Positions 48,249 to 55,119 of a stretch of DNA of 57,354 nucleotides are shown piece after piece. How positions within the stretch are numbered: the first letter of the stretch is position 1; every line of letters begins with the position of its first letter. Origin of the DNA: Lachnospiraceae bacterium (GTDB lineage: Bacteria > Bacillota > Clostridia > Lachnospirales > Lachnospiraceae). The translations under genes were made by a program, and so were the position numbers. The notes under the pieces are model-generated. The model ran no database searches and had not been told where the DNA came from. It saw only the letters and a program-made list of their open reading frames with translations. The stretch is from NCBI GenBank assembly GCA_017448245.1, contig JAFSLV010000016.1, forward strand, positions 1-57,354, in the 5' to 3' direction.

Positions 48249-49331
48249 TTATGAGTCCTCTCCGAAAAACAGCTCATAGGTATCCCAGAAGCCGGAGGTC
48301 AGATCCTCCCCGTCCGGGATCTCGAGCGCTTCCCACGCGCCCGTATTGAGCTGCACCGGCAGCCCTTCCACAAAGGCATCGTAGAGTTCCCCGAATGCCT
48401 CGTTCCTGCGCATTCTGACGATCCGCTCCTTGTTGGCTCTCGTGGCCTGCCTGTCAAAAGCGGATACGCAACGCAATATGTAATAGGACGATTCCGTCTC
48501 CAGAATCCCGCTGACTTCCCCGGTTTCCAGGGAAAAGGCCTCCTCCTCCGGGAAATCTTCGGTTTCTCCCGTCCCGAAGGTCAGCCGCTCCGTTTCGCTT
48601 TCGTTATACAGCGGCTGCACGGCGGCAAAATCCTCTCCGTCTTCGAGCATCTTTTGCGCTTCCTGTGCCAGCGCAAGGGCGGATGCGGGATTGTCCCTTT
48701 TACCGATCCGCAGCACCTCGACCGTAATCGTGCGCGCCTCATCGTCAGAGATCTCCGGATTGACATCGCGCACGGCATATTCGTACACGCGCGTCGCGAC
48801 CAGAATCTCCTCATACATGGCGCGGATCGTTTCCTGGGAAACATGATCGAGTGCGATAAGATCCGCTTCCGTCAGTGTGGCGTAATAGGCGGCGGCACAG
48901 GCCGCACATTTTTCGAGTTCCTCCGCTTCCGGCAAAATGCCGGTCTCTTCCGCAAGGAGCTGCATCGCCTTGATCTGTCCGGCGAGCGCCAGCGTGCTTT
49001 CCCTTATCGTCTCCGTCAGACCGCCCGTTTCGTCAAAAGCAAACGCTTCCGGGTCCGTTCCCTGAAAAATCGCATCATAGCGTTTTGCCGCATTGACGAG
49101 ATATACCAGCATCTCCTGTCTGGTACAGGTAAGCCTTCCGACACGGAAGATCTCATTGCGCGAAAAGCCCGTCGTCAGGATATACCGGTTTTGCGTTCCC
49201 GCGCATGCCTGCAGCAAAAGGCAGGCGATACACGCTAACAGCAGGAATAATCGCCTATTTCGCGCCGGTCCTGTACTGGATCGGCGTGCATCCGTATTTC
49301 TTTTTAAACAGCCGGTTAAAATGCTCCACAT
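48249..49331 (-). CDS. lipoprotein with parvulin-type PPIase-like domain (PrsA/SurA-like)
   Basis: The protein has 360 residues. A signal peptide with a long N-terminal part ends in LLLQAC, a proper lipobox with Cys43. The mature part begins with a SurA/PrsA-like helical domain and contains a parvulin-like segment near 210-310 (AQKMLEDGEDFAAV, FSLETGEVSGILETESSYYI) as in extracytoplasmic folding factors. Several catalytic residues of parvulins are not evident, so it may be a chaperone without isomerase activity. The only in-frame ATG, at 49331, lies 77 bp inside the leuA gene with AGGA before it. It precedes htpG by 29 bp. Confidence 0.8.
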   Translation of the reverse strand: MWSILTGCLKRNTDARRSSTGPARNRRLFLLLACIACLLLQACAGTQNRYILTTGFSRNEIFRVGRLTCTRQEMLVYLVNAAKRYDAIFQGTDPEAFAFDETGGLTETIRESTLALAGQIKAMQLLAEETGILPEAEELEKCAACAAAYYATLTEADLIALDHVSQETIRAMYEEILVATRVYEYAVRDVNPEISDDEARTITVEVLRIGKRDNPASALALAQEAQKMLEDGEDFAAVQPLYNESETERLTFGTGETEDFPEEEAFSLETGEVSGILETESSYYILRCVSAFDRQATRANKERIVRMRRNEAFGELYDAFVEGLPVQLNTGAWEALEIPDGEDLTSGFWDTYELFFGEDS

Positions 49332-51246
49332 TCTGGTATCCTGCCGCCTCCGCGACCCGCTCGACCTTCATGTTGCCGTCGCGCAGAAGCGCGCCCGCCT
49401 TTTGCAGACGGATCTTCTTGACATTTTCCCCGAAGGTCATGCCGCTCTTTTCCCGGATGTACTTGGACAGATACGGCTTGGAGAGATAAAATTTGCCCGC
49501 CAGATCATCGAGCGTCACGGTGCGGTAATTCTTTTGTATATAATTCATGATCTTGCCGATCCTGTCATCGGGCCACTCTCCCTGTGCGCGCACGGTCAGC
49601 AGCCGGTTGACCGCAATGCACAGTGCGTCGATCGACGCGTGGATGATGTCCTCGTCGATCCCTACGCCCCAGAAGGACTTCTTGTCCGCCTCGAGTCCCA
49701 CATAACTGACCGCCCTGGCGTTGGAGCCTTCGCCGAGTGCGTGCTCCTCATAACAGACCAGATGATAGTCCGTGCCGAAATACTGCTTGAAGCAGTTGGA
49801 CACCGCGTTGAGGCGTCCGTTCCCGTTGGCTTCGATCAGATGGGACGCGCCCTCGTGCTCGATCGTCACCTGCGCGAGAATCCCGTTCTGTTGCCTGAAG
49901 TGGACGTCTGTCACGCGGAAGACCGTATGGGCATGAATGTAATGATCCTCGAAGATCTGCCAGATGCGTTCGGGGGTGAGCTCCTTGTGCTCCTTGTCGG
50001 AGATATCCTTGACCAGATACGATACGTCCTCCTGCATGTCCTTTGGCATGTCGATGCCAAAGTTGGTATGCAGGATATAATTGACGCCGCCCTTTCCGGA
50101 TTGCGAATTGATCCGTATCACGTCGCCGTCGTATTCCCTGCCGATGTCCTTGGGATCGAGCGGCAGATACGGCACCGTCCAGATGCCCTTGTCCTTTTTC
50201 TCCTTGCGCCACTGAAAGCCCTTGGCGATCGCATCCTGGTGCGATCCGGAAAAAGCCGTAAAGACCAGCTGTCCCGCATAGGGCTGCCGTTCAAAGACAT
50301 GCATCCTCGTCAGCCGTTCATAGGTCGCCGCGATCCTGTTGATGTCCGAAAAATCGAGCTTCGGATTGACACCGTGCGTATACAGATTGAGCGCCAGCGT
50401 CACGATATCGACGTTACCGGTACGCTCGCCGTTACCGAACAGCGTCCCCTCCACACGGTCCGCGCCCGCAAGCTGCGCAAGCTCCGCGGTGGCCACGCCG
50501 CAACCGCGGTCGTTGTGCGGATGCACGGACAGGGTGACCTTCTTGCGGTATTTCAGCGCATGGTCGATGTATTCGATCTGCTCCGCAAAGACATGCGGCA
50601 TCGCGCATTCCACGGTGGTCGGGATGTTGATGATCACATCGCGTCCCAGGTCCGGGCGCCACACATCAAGCACCGCGTTGCATACCTCCACCGCGTAGTC
50701 CGGTTCCGTCCCGTGAAAGGATTCCGGACTGTATTGAAAGGAGAGATTGTTTTTGCCCTCCGCCAGTTTGTTCAGGAGCTTTGCGCCGTTCACCGCAATC
50801 CGTTTGATCTGTGCCTTATCCTTTTGGAAGACCTGCTCGCGCTGTGCGATCGATGTGGAATTGTACAGATGCACGATCGCGCGCGGTGCACCCTCAATCG
50901 CTTCAAAGGTCTTGCGGATGATGTGCTCCCTCGCCTGTGTGAGCACCTGCACGGTGACGTCCTCGGGAATCATTTTCTGTTCGATCAGCATCCGCGCAAA
51001 CGCATACTCCGTTTCGGAGGCGGCGGGGAAGCCGATCTCGATCTCCTTGAAACCGATCTCCACAAGCATCCGGAAAAATTCCAGTTTTTCGTCGAGACTC
51101 ATCGGCTCGATCAGCGCCTGGTTGCCATCACGCAAATCCACGCTGCACCAGACCGGAGGCTTTGTGAGCGCATCCTTTTTGACCCATTCGTTGGTCACCG
51201 TGGGCGGCATGACATACAGTTTGCGGTATTTCTTTGCGTTCTTCAT
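49255..51246 (-). CDS. leuA: 2-isopropylmalate synthase fused to an AraC-type DNA-binding domain
   Basis: The protein has 663 residues. Residues 1-400 are a complete LeuA barrel: CSVDLRDGNQ at 34-43, metal-binding HPHND at 242-246 and GNGERTGNVD at 271-280. About 425-555 is the C-terminal LeuA regulatory/dimerisation domain that binds leucine. Residues 562-660 then form two helix-turn-helix units of AraC type (TLDDLAGKFYLSKPYLSKYI and KVERVAEAAGYQNVEHFNRL). The enzyme starts leucine synthesis from 2-oxoisovalerate and acetyl-CoA. The attached domain suggests that it also binds DNA, possibly with leucine as signal. No frameshift separates the parts. An inverted repeat at 51273-51289 lies upstream. 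Confidence 0.93.
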   Translation of the reverse strand: MKNAKKYRKLYVMPPTVTNEWVKKDALTKPPVWCSVDLRDGNQALIEPMSLDEKLEFFRMLVEIGFKEIEIGFPAASETEYAFARMLIEQKMIPEDVTVQVLTQAREHIIRKTFEAIEGAPRAIVHLYNSTSIAQREQVFQKDKAQIKRIAVNGAKLLNKLAEGKNNLSFQYSPESFHGTEPDYAVEVCNAVLDVWRPDLGRDVIINIPTTVECAMPHVFAEQIEYIDHALKYRKKVTLSVHPHNDRGCGVATAELAQLAGADRVEGTLFGNGERTGNVDIVTLALNLYTHGVNPKLDFSDINRIAATYERLTRMHVFERQPYAGQLVFTAFSGSHQDAIAKGFQWRKEKKDKGIWTVPYLPLDPKDIGREYDGDVIRINSQSGKGGVNYILHTNFGIDMPKDMQEDVSYLVKDISDKEHKELTPERIWQIFEDHYIHAHTVFRVTDVHFRQQNGILAQVTIEHEGASHLIEANGNGRLNAVSNCFKQYFGTDYHLVCYEEHALGEGSNARAVSYVGLEADKKSFWGVGIDEDIIHASIDALCIAVNRLLTVRAQGEWPDDRIGKIMNYIQKNYRTVTLDDLAGKFYLSKPYLSKYIREKSGMTFGENVKKIRLQKAGALLRDGNMKVERVAEAAGYQNVEHFNRLFKKKYGCTPIQYRTGAK

Positions 51247-51272
51247 CTCTTCCTTCTCGTCCTTTCGTCGGC

Positions 51273-51289
51273 GTGATAAATATGGTCAC
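51273..51289. promoter_or_regulatory. imperfect inverted repeat upstream of leuA
   Basis: GTGATAAATATGGTCAC has GTGA and TCAC ends 27 bp before the leuA start codon. It could be a binding site for the AraC-type domain encoded by leuA or for another regulator; this is a guess based on symmetry and place. Further up, GCGACGCGCGTCGC (51325-51338) is a perfect 14-bp palindrome and ATGAT/ATCAT (51340-51353) a small hairpin; they lie after the rpoD stop and may terminate or attenuate. Confidence 0.35.
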
Positions 51290-51371
51290 AAAACTTGATA
51301 AAATATATTCCATCCTATCACGGCGCGACGCGCGTCGCAATGATGCGAATCATCTTATTTCTTGATCTTTT

Positions 51372-53333
51372 TTAATCAAGGTAGTCCTTCAGCTTCCGGG
51401 AGCGCGAGGGATGTCTGAGCTTGCGCAGGGCCTTCGCCTCGATCTGCCGGATACGCTCTCTCGTGACGTTGAATTCCTTGCCGACCTCTTCGAGGGTTCT
51501 GGCTCTGCCGTCATCGAGACCGAACCGGAGCCTGAGCACCTTCTGCTCCCTCTCCGTCAGTGTCCCGAGCACCTCCACGAGCTGCTCCTTCAAGAGCGTA
51601 AATGCCGCGGCGTCCGCCGGCACCGGCACGTTTTCGTCCTGCAGAAAATCACCCAGATGCGAATCCTCTTCCTCGCCGATCGGTGTCTCGAGCGATACGG
51701 GCTCCTGCGAGATCTTTAAGATCTCGCGCACACGCTCGACCGGAATGTCCATCTCCTGTGCGATTTCCTCGGGCGTGGGCTCGCGGCCGAGTTCCTGTAA
51801 GAGCTGCCTCGAGATCCGGATCAGCTTGTTGATGGTCTCCACCATGTGCACGGGGATGCGGATCGTTCTGGCCTGGTCGGCGATGGCTCTCGTGATCGCC
51901 TGACGGATCCACCAGGTCGCATACGTCGAAAACTTAAAGCCCTTGCGGAAGTCAAATTTTTCGACCGCCTTGATGAGACCCAGATTTCCCTCCTGGATGA
52001 GATCCAGGAACAGCATGCCGCGGCCGACATACCGCTTGGCGATGGACACGACAAGACGCAGATTGGCTTCCGCGAGACGCTTTCTCGCATTTTCACCGAC
52101 CCTGGACATTTCCTTTAACTGTCTCGTGGTTTTTCCCTTGACGAGGGCTTTTTCCTCCCTGATGCGCTGCGGATCCTCGAGGTCGGTGGGTGTATTGTGG
52201 AGGACATGATCGGCCGCAGCCCCCGCCTCCATCTGCTGTGCGTACTCGACCTCCTGCTCCGCCGTCAGCAGCGGGACCTTCCCGATCTCCTTGAGATACA
52301 TGCGGACGGGGTCCTCGATGCTGATGCCGTCGGGAATCGTGATGTCGAGATTTTCGACATCGCCTTCGTCCTCCTCTCCCATCAGCAGATCATCGCTGTC
52401 CGGCAGATCATCGACATCGTCGGAGATCCGCAACACATCGATGCCGGACTGTTCGAGCGTCTCGAGCACGTGGTCGAGTTGCTCGTCGCCAAGTCCCAGG
52501 TCCGCAAAATAATCGCTGATCTCGTTGTATTCGAGTACGTTTTTCTTTTTCCTCGCATGCGAAAGAAGCGCATCGAGCTTTTGCTTGAAGAGTTTTTGTT
52601 TCTCCTCCGTCATGGCGGCATCTTCTTCTTCGCCGTCCCCGATCACGTCGTGCAAAAGATCGTCATCGTAGTGGCTGCGCGCCTTGCCCGTTGTCTTCCC
52701 GGACCGGGATCCCGCGGCGGCCGCCTTTTCCTTTTCCTTTTTTTGGCGCTCCTGCTCCTTCTTTTTGGCAAGTGCTGCCCTTTCCTTTTCCTTTCTGGCC
52801 TTTTCGCGTTCGCGCTCTTTTCTTGCCTTTTCGCGCTCGCGCTCCTTTTTGGCCCTTTCCTGCGCCTTCAGTCGCTCCGCCTTTGCCTTTTCAAGCGCCT
52901 TCTTTTTGGCAAGCGCTTCCTTCTCGCGGCGCGCCTTTTCCTGCGCCTTCAGACGCTCCGCCTTTGCCTTCTCCATCGCCTTCTTTTTGGCGAGCGCCTC
53001 CCTCTCGCGGCGCGCCTTCTCCTGCGCTTTCAGACGTTCCGCCTTTGCTTTTTCCTGCGCTTTCAGCCGGTCCGCTTTTGCCTTTTCGATCGCTTTCTTT
53101 TTGGCAAGCGCTTCCCTCTCACGGCGAGCCTTTTCCTGCGGCGTCAGTTTCCCGGACGCGGCTGTCTTCTTTGCGCCGCTTCCGGACGCAGGTGTCTTTT
53201 TGCCGGATGCCGCACTTCCGGCGCTTTTCTTTGCGGCAGAAGAAGGCGCGGTCTTTTTTTCGTTCTTCTTTTGCGCGCTCTTTGCCTGCGTCTTTGCTTT
53301 TGTTGCGGGCTTTGCTTTTGCTTTTGTCGCCAT
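51372..53333 (-). CDS. rpoD: primary sigma factor RpoD with long Lys/Ala-rich N-terminal extension
   Basis: The protein has 653 residues against about 370 in many Firmicutes. From about 241 onward it is a normal primary sigma: region 1.1, region 1.2/2 ([36 protein letters not shown]), region 3, and region 4 ([20 protein letters not shown]). Residues 1-60 are Ala/Lys/Ser-rich and 62-205 are a charged coiled coil built of repeats such as [15 protein letters not shown] and [11 protein letters not shown]. The start at 53333 has GGAG six bases upstream; a start at residue 241 is conceivable. It follows dnaG with its 5' end near the dnaG stop, forming the usual dnaG-rpoD pair. Confidence 0.95.
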
Positions 53334-53355
53334 GTTGTTCTCCGTTTCTTTTTTC

Positions 53356-55119
53356 TTATCTGTCAGACAGCACAAGTTCCGTTCGTTGAAACTGCTCGAG
53401 CCGCTTCTTTCCCTCGATCATGCCGGTAAGCCCCGATGCGTCCTGCGGGTCCGTCTCCTCGCACCTGCGCTCGTAGGCGTTCTTCATGACTTCATAGATC
53501 ATGTCCTTGAGCGCCCTTTCCCGCAGGGCGTCCGTCTCCGCCTCCGGAAAAGGAATCGCAAGGATCTGTGCCGCTTCGTCCTTTTCCTCATCCGCAAACC
53601 GGTCGAGGATCTCCGAGGGATGCGTCGTTTCGTCATAGAGGATCTTTGCGATTCTTTTGCATACTGGATCCGTAAAATCCGATGCCTCCACATATCCCTT
53701 CACGACCGTAAGAATCCCCGGGTCCTCGGTGATCGCACTTAAGAGCATCCGCTCCGCCTTGATCACTTCCTTTTTTTCCGCACGGACGCGCGGTGTGGTC
53801 GTGCGCTTTGACGCCATGCTCTGCGTATCACGCGAGACGCTGAGTGCCACCGCGTTTTTCATGTCCTGTGCGTCGATGCCGTAGCGTGCGCAGACCGTCT
53901 GCAGATAGTTTTCCCGCTCGAGCGCATCGGGAAAAGACTGCGCGAGCTTTTCCGCAAGCAGGTGCTGAAAGGCCGTCGCCTCGTCCGGATCGTCGAGGCG
54001 GTAATCTTTTTCCGCCAGCTGCATCTCGAACAGAAAGGGATTCTTTGCCTCCCTGATCCTGCGCTCGAGCGCATCCCGCCCCTCTTTTCCGATCAGCTCG
54101 TCCGGATCCTTGCAGGGGGACAGATCGATCACGCGGGCGCGGATCCCCGCCTCCTTCAGCAGAGAAAGCGCGCGGAGTGCCGCCTTCGTCCCCGCCTCGT
54201 CGGAATCATAGGCAAGGAAGGCTTCTTTGACATACCGTTTTAACACATTGGCCTGTCCCGCGGTAAAGGAGGTGCCGAGCGACGCACACGCCTCGCCGAA
54301 CTGCGCCTGGTGCATCGAGATCACATCCATATAGCCTTCGCACAAAATGACGCGCCCGCTTCTCGATAAGCGCGCATACATCAGCCCGTAGAGATTCCTG
54401 CTTTTATCAAAGATGAGCGTCTCGGGCGAGTTGAGATACTTGGGTTCTCCGTCTCCCATGACGCGCCCGCCAAAGCCGATCACGCGCTTATTGACATCCT
54501 GGATCGGAAACATCACGCGATTCCAGAATTTGTCGCGCATCCCCTTTTTCTCGTCATGCACCGCAAGCCCCGCTTCCAGGATCTCGGAATCGGAAAACCC
54601 TTTTGATCTCAGGTGGACGCTCAGGTCATCCCTGGACAGCGGCGCGTATCCCAGACCGAAACGGTGCATCGTCTCATCACTCAGGCCGCGGTTTCTCAGA
54701 TATTTGAGCGCCGCCTTTCCTTCCGGTGCGCGCAGCAGGTGATAATAATACACGGCCGCTTCTTTATTGATCTCGAGCAGTCGGTTTCTTAAGTCCTGTC
54801 TTTTTCTCGCCTTTTCGGGATCGCCCTTTTGCGGAAGCGCAACCTGCGCTCTTTCCGCCAGACGCTCTACCGCCTCCGGATACGTGAGATTGTCGTATTT
54901 TTGCACATAAGAAAACACATTACCCCCGACACCGCAGCCAAAGCAGTAAAACATCTGCTTGGCGGGCGATACCGAAAAAGAGGGTGTCTTTTCGTTATGA
55001 AAGGGACACAGTCCGAAATAATTGGTGCCGCGCTTCGTCAGCTGTACCGTCTGTGAAATCACATCGACGATATCATTGCGCATGCGCACTTCGTCGATCA
55101 CGCTGTCTTCGTAATACAT
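53356..55119 (-). CDS. dnaG: DNA primase
   Basis: The enzyme has 587 residues. The N-terminal zinc ribbon has Cys38, His41, Cys59 and Cys62 ([14 protein letters not shown] and YCFGCG). The central TOPRIM domain has [15 protein letters not shown] and [12 protein letters not shown]. The C-terminal helicase-binding domain ends [12 protein letters not shown]. It makes RNA primers at the replication fork. The start at 55119 ([11 protein letters not shown]) follows AGGGGA; the longer open frame to 55188 overlaps the dGTPase gene. It lies 13 bp after dGTPase and 22 bp before rpoD, which is the common arrangement in Clostridia. Confidence 0.96.

Follow-up and report, generated by a model that had tools for sequence, protein, structure and literature searches.

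Can the enzyme that catalyses the first step of leucine biosynthesis also be the transcription factor of its own gene? The question is raised by a leuA gene in a 57,354-nucleotide stretch of a Lachnospiraceae bacterium (contig JAFSLV010000016.1 of assembly GCA_017448245.1; hereafter the window), in which 2-isopropylmalate synthase (LeuA) runs on in the same frame into a DNA-binding domain of the AraC/XylS type. Judging from sequence, we conclude that this LeuA-AraC protein is probably both a 2-isopropylmalate synthase and a leucine-switched, AraC-type transcription factor of its own gene. That the tailed enzyme regulates its own production is very probable, and leucine is a plausible signal.

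The fusion gene (49255..51246; like every feature of the window described here, on the minus strand) encodes 663 amino acids in a single frame, with an ATG start and no internal stop. The first-pass annotation had read it as an intact LeuA with its leucine-binding domain, followed in frame by an AraC-type unit of two helix-turn-helix motifs, and the domain search bears this out for both halves, every Pfam match being above its curated cut-off. The HMGL-like catalytic barrel (residues 32-307, 50326..51153, 236.7 bits) keeps D40, H242, H244, E266, residues 271-277 and N278, and the IPMS_D2 subdomain (residues 327-393, 50068..50268, 110.9 bits) keeps H336 and Y360. They are followed by the leucine-binding allosteric domain LeuA_dimer (residues 422-550, 49597..49983, 96.9 bits) and, after a gap of about 11 residues, by the AraC/XylS-type DNA-binding domain (residues 562-660, 49267..49563), which has seven predicted helices and matches HTH_18 (residues 582-660, 71.3 bits, cut-off 33.6) and HTH_AraC (residues 621-660, 54.3 bits, cut-off 26.6). 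Among the NCBIfam models, the 2-isopropylmalate synthase subfamily NF002991 scored 807.6 bits (cut-off 455) and the equivalog TIGR00970 scored 667.8 bits, below its cut-off of 697.4; models of AraC-type regulators aligned to the tail with scores below their whole-protein cut-offs. Residues 1-550 are LeuA, and no dedicated, non-enzymatic sensor domain of the AraC/XylS kind lies ahead of the DNA-binding domain.

Among solved structures, residues 19-517 are closest to M. tuberculosis LeuA, and the tail is closest to AraC-type regulators. An AlphaFold2 model, built from an alignment of 14 sequences (the window protein and related loci only), placed seven helices at 561-660, where blocks had a predicted local distance difference test (pLDDT) score of 78-89; the mean pLDDT was 74 and that of the linker block 551-560 was 60. 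Because residues 318-386 were unreliable and the predicted template modelling score was 0.50, we make no claim on how the domains are arranged. A Foldseek search with the model returned M. tuberculosis LeuA as the top match.

We asked whether both activities look selected. The residues presumed to recognise DNA, 590-600 and 638-649, which we take to be the two AraC recognition helices, carry the commonest residue in 79-100% of rows of the alignment. Within the genus, the AraC part and the catalytic part each have a mean pairwise identity of 0.92 and the leucine-binding domain one of 0.82; over all 67 fused rows the values, in the same order, are 0.74, 0.84 and 0.69. The roles of catalytic and leucine-site residues were taken from the portion consulted of a study of M. 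tuberculosis LeuA (PMC2704214), with PMC10464499, likewise in part, as further background. On this mapping the window protein matches M. tuberculosis LeuA at 12 of 12 catalytic positions, and the 12 are kept in all 67 fused rows, apart from a single X in one row. In the mapped leucine site, G475, G477, L479, Y499, A503, A510 and A512 of the window protein are matching or identical, and L496 (for V) and N480 (for A) differ; G475, G477, L479, Y499 and A512 are invariant over the 67 rows. Leucine is plausible as the signal because most of these residues are kept. The fused protein is apparently still catalytic, that is, a working 2-isopropylmalate synthase, and its enzymatic and DNA-binding activities both look selected.

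The fusion is not peculiar to the window. It was found at full length in 33 of 36 other genomes of the genus, one of which (G017) has a TAG in frame; in G032 it is broken up over two contigs, and the incomplete genomes G002 and G015 gave no LeuA match. In a survey of 397 genomes of the family, its own included, at least 89 alignments reached residue 659 or further, 2 of them with an internal stop, and in nearly all other family rows among the matches listed LeuA stops near residue 550. Among the matches listed for 24 genomes from other families of the order, none ran through the tail. A survey of 391 genomes of the class found 13 fusions, 3 of them outside the family. Named fusion records are mostly Lachnospiraceae and Roseburia, and one is labelled Syntrophomonas; this last (L033) carries the fusion together with a high-scoring copy of the upstream site described below (39.2), and may reflect transfer between families or a mislabelled metagenome bin.

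This spread disposes of a frameshift or assembly error at the junction, which the first-pass annotation had named as fatal to its idea: the same in-frame junction recurs throughout the genus and in many genera of the family. An artefact of frameshifting, assembly or annotation therefore has next to no chance of being the explanation of the fusion. What speaks for it is that two loci counted as unfused, L106 and L112, have the AraC domain in another frame just after or overlapping the end of leuA, with a run of A's at the L112 junction; the window itself offers no such sign. For these two loci a real split, slippage and a sequencing error all fit and cannot be told apart.

In a tree of LeuA built without the tail, the fused label requires 5 changes, of which well supported branches demand at least 4, compared with a mean of 28.7 for shuffled labels. 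The domain-less L110, L111, L113 and L130 nest among fused leuA and look like losses of the AraC domain, with the caveat that the branches of L111 and L130 are long and the tree is arbitrarily rooted. L040, with frame breaks, was excluded from the protein alignments and the tree, and L045-L047 were unused.

If the tail acts on leuA, its site should lie upstream. Upstream stretches of as much as 400 nt, read for 72 leuA genes, showed a shared element close to ATAAATCAAGAAAAGTGATTAAATTTATCA, and a 30-bp matrix was trained on the 67 usable fused leuA (a score of 7.6 is the looser cut, and at least 15 the strict one). Within 400 nt, 63 of the 67 scored above the 99% level set by shuffled upstreams. 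Among 55 scored leuA, the ATCAA of the site lay 49-51 bp from a -10 in 53, a spacing somewhat favoured by the procedure, since the -10 was the best match 36-69 bp downstream with ties going to the one nearest 50 bp. The extended TG of the -10 (TGnTAnnnT) was present in 54 of the 55 and the -35 was poor in 52, where the best candidate matched no more than 3 of 6 positions. A scan of 300 nt for this arrangement of site and -10 found it in 64 of 67 fused leuA (1.2 expected from shuffling) and in 2 of 34 unfused leuA (0.26 expected), namely L106 and L112; the gap was corrected from the spacing table and so is not independent of the training set, an earlier pattern with a longer gap having given 48 of 67 and 2 of 34. 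We rejected a reading of the element as an RNA leader because it lies upstream of the -10 and the window locus (L001) has no Rfam match. Inspection by eye of L048, L050, L051, L055 and their relatives showed the site overlapping a hairpin with T's after it, which may be the terminator of the preceding gene.

The presence of the site tracks the AraC domain. The comparison comprised 152 leuA loci: the 67 training genes, 30 further fused genes (27 from the family and 3 from other families), 52 without the domain, and 3 (L106, L112, L269) in which the domain is a separate open reading frame or is severed by a contig end. The upstream stretch was 400 nt long at L257-L277 and 420 nt at 23 of the further fused loci, and reached up to 1000 nt elsewhere; L061, with 47 nt, was left out. 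The looser score was reached by 65/67 training genes, 26/30 further fused genes, 3/3 with a split or cut domain and 1/52 without the domain; when either this score or the arrangement was accepted, the counts became 67/67, 29/30, 3/3 and 4/52, and at the strict score they were 58/67, 25/30, 2/3 and 0/52. The 30 further genes, being outside the training set, give the fairer counts, although for two of their genomes (G404, G164) a core-pattern match at leuA had already been seen beforehand. The four domain-less genes passing the looser test are L041, L115 and L133, by arrangement only and with negative scores, and L277 (14.3). In a set of 30 unfused leuA, L106 (26.2) and L112 (12.6) stood out and the others were below the 99% shuffled level; these two are the only ones of 34 unfused loci where a search finds an AraC domain, directly downstream. 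At the level of sequence, the site is shown to be nearly absent from leuA genes lacking the domain.

Among the 30 further fused genes, 23 have the arrangement within 420 nt (L246 and L256 begin with ATCAT and score 19.0 and 18.5). The remaining 7 all have a T-box leader, and 6 of them have the site farther upstream, by score or arrangement. At the Rfam gathering score, T-box leaders precede 12 of 20 unfused leuA (L106 and L112 being among the 20 and without one) and 7 of 13 in another set, in which several upstreams were only 400 nt, compared with 2 of 20 fused leuA (L072, L074) and 7 of 7 fused loci picked for having no site near the ATG; none was found at the window locus. The idea of a T-box or an AraC-type site but never both is wrong, because, of the 9 T-box-bearing fused leuA (L072, L074, L278-L284), all but the weak L280 also have the site, by score or by arrangement, ahead of the leader. 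At these eight the controls stand in series: AraC-type site and promoter, T-box leader, gene. L107 and L123 have a Clostridiales-1 RNA (Rfam RF01699) after the T-box leader and before leuA. A T-box leader of leuA governs the same gene as LeuA-AraC is predicted to do, very likely by leucine supply, but it is an RNA read after transcription has started, whereas the AraC-type site lies upstream of the -10. The exchange of the two kinds of control fits a leucine-responsive model.

Many fused loci carry a second copy of the site. When the 83 fused loci whose first site is strong were scanned further on, another copy turned up across the promoter, at 40-109 bp, in 33, compared with 28 of 1020 shuffled segments; the 83 are related and not independent. 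The commonest spacings, 63 bp (14 loci) and 74 bp (9 loci), correspond to roughly six and seven turns of the helix. Some members of the genus also have the site in front of leuC: with the leuA-trained matrix, 20 of 31 leuC upstreams (from 37 matches) scored at least 7.6, 3 more have a site by eye with a small shift, and 8, including that of the window's genome, have none. The ATCAA lay 50-52 bp from the -10 in 19 of 19 scored leuC genes. The regulon can therefore be wider than leuA. As a general second target, leuC was rejected because it has the site in only part of the genus; 29 unfused leuC gave a single marginal score (8.3), and an Rfam scan of 20 fused leuC loci gave no match. A genome-wide search of 13 fused genomes with the 19-bp core, allowing at most one mismatch, gave 27 matches, of which 12 were at leuA (in every genome except the window's), 2 at leuC (G031, G001) and 13 elsewhere; the last number equals the level of the reversed-pattern control (15).

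In the window, a divergent copy of the conserved site (site 1, 51341..51370, matrix score 14.7) is correctly placed despite its divergence. It lies directly after an rpoD-like gene, and a predicted extended -10 (TGATAGGAT, 51312..51320, hexamer 51317-51312) follows 49 bp past its ATCAA. A possible site 2 (51273..51299), recognised by eye only, lies 67 bp past site 1. The adjoining rpoD-like gene (51372-53375), a sigma factor gene by eye, has a repetitive N-terminal stretch of about 200 residues rich in lysine, alanine and glutamate. The gene after leuA (48249-49331) looks by eye as if it encodes a peptidyl-prolyl isomerase-type lipoprotein; since the listed ATG overlaps the end of leuA, translation probably starts further downstream.

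How might such a protein work? The enzyme is probably a dimer and would carry two AraC domains. When leucine is scarce, these domains of the apo-enzyme would occupy site 1 and drive transcription from the weak promoter. Once leucine binds in LeuA_dimer, the enzyme would be inhibited and, by way of the short linker joining that domain to the AraC domain, activation would end or binding would shift to site 2, so that transcription of leuA, and in some species also of leuC, would be lowered. The first-pass annotation had proposed that the protein senses leucine and represses its own operon. Its action on its own gene is strongly supported by comparison: in the upstream region it named (51247-51371) there is a site whose distance from the promoter hardly varies and whose presence follows that of the AraC domain across the 152 loci. 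Repression, the sign it gave, is one possibility, the main site being where AraC-type activators usually bind. An AraC-type site abutting a poor -35 usually means activation. Site 1 ends at the -35 position and the -35 is poor, which points to activation, and site 2 lies past the -10, which points to repression. Because site 1 is in an activator position and a second copy is often present downstream, activation, repression or both are possible. A more specific version, which we offer tentatively and think somewhat doubtful, is that leucine shuts the active site and at the same time repositions the two AraC domains of the dimer from activation at site 1 to bridging sites 1 and 2, which lie about six or seven turns of the helix apart. 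The pathway's first enzyme would then contain an AraC-like switch that alternates, and sometimes coexists, with T-box control.

The signal could be something other than leucine. The AraC domain may regulate leuA without leucine in LeuA_dimer and report ketoisovalerate, acetyl-CoA, isopropylmalate or simply the amount of enzyme, as in plain autoregulation. In its favour, the site evidence is silent on the ligand and no folded domain is less conserved than LeuA_dimer. Position 480, an alanine in the mapped leucine site of M. tuberculosis, is D or N in fused and unfused proteins alike, which counts against a leucine switch. Nevertheless, most leucine-site residues are kept and LeuA_dimer directly precedes the AraC domain, and we regard this alternative as unlikely. 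It seems to us distinctly less probable still that the site belongs to another regulator of leucine genes and that the AraC tail has another role, in structure or localisation, or none. Binding of the site by LeuA-AraC is a prediction, and the core pattern occurs 23 times in 8 genomes taken as unfused compared with 11 for the reversed control, although all of these genomes but G450 were so classed by their family-survey scores and only in G450 were positions compared with its leuA. What argues for LeuA-AraC as the protein that uses the site is that 99 of 100 leuA genes with the domain, whole, split or cut, have it, compared with 4 of 52 (loose) or 0 of 52 (strict) without the domain, that it is present at L106 and L112, where the domain is encoded next door, and that the presumed recognition helices are nearly invariant.

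Several further observations count against a leucine-switched autoregulator. Domain changes on the tree are few, and with only 4 supported independent pairs (site concordant in 3-4, opposed in 0) the co-change of domain and site, scored within 300 nt, is not significant (sign test, p 0.125-0.25). One further fused gene, L280, scores 7.1 and is without the arrangement. In the window itself, the score of the divergent site 1 is well below that of most relatives, though above the highest shuffled value (9.4), and the spacing to the second site differs from the 63 or 74 bp usual in relatives; the window's genome has neither a core-pattern match nor a site at leuC. Finally, among 30 fused genomes the site was found at leuC only in the genus members G031 and G001, in a survey where the leuC matches L163-L165 were only 45-48% identical to the query and L188, with no open reading frame found, was dropped.

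The tail of LeuA-AraC belongs to the same DNA-binding family as AraC, MarA, Rns and YesN, and AraC, like fused leuA, pairs a site beside a weak -35 with another several turns of the helix away. In place of the usual small sensor of these regulators, LeuA-AraC has a whole enzyme and its allosteric domain. PutA, the proline dehydrogenase, is a catabolic enzyme with a ribbon-helix-helix domain and is controlled by its substrate, whereas LeuA-AraC is a biosynthetic, end-product-inhibited kind of enzyme with an AraC-type domain. The two are alike in being metabolic enzymes that bind DNA and control transcription, as predicted for LeuA-AraC. Such trigger enzymes are an established idea, and the portion consulted of PMC3178575 names E. 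coli proline dehydrogenase as a DNA-binding transcription factor; the sequence of LeuA-AraC is compatible with a trigger enzyme. BzdR similarly joins a DNA-binding domain to an enzyme-like sensor, a shikimate-kinase-like effector for which loss of enzyme activity is reported as essential in the part consulted of PMC3602430; LeuA-AraC, in contrast, keeps every mapped catalytic residue. No report of a LeuA-AraC protein was found among the titles and abstract openings listed by searches of a collection that takes in a minority of subscription papers and no bioRxiv preprints.

If the explanation is correct, leucine synthesis in a widespread bacterial group would have at its first step a single polypeptide that both undergoes feedback inhibition and controls gene expression. 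LeuA-AraC would also be a natural and apparently still catalytic counterpart of the step in which an enzyme recruits a DNA-binding domain, which BzdR represents after loss of activity. It would open to direct test how control of a DNA-binding domain passes to an allosteric one, and how, at one gene, a transcription factor and a T-box substitute for each other or serve as each other's backup.

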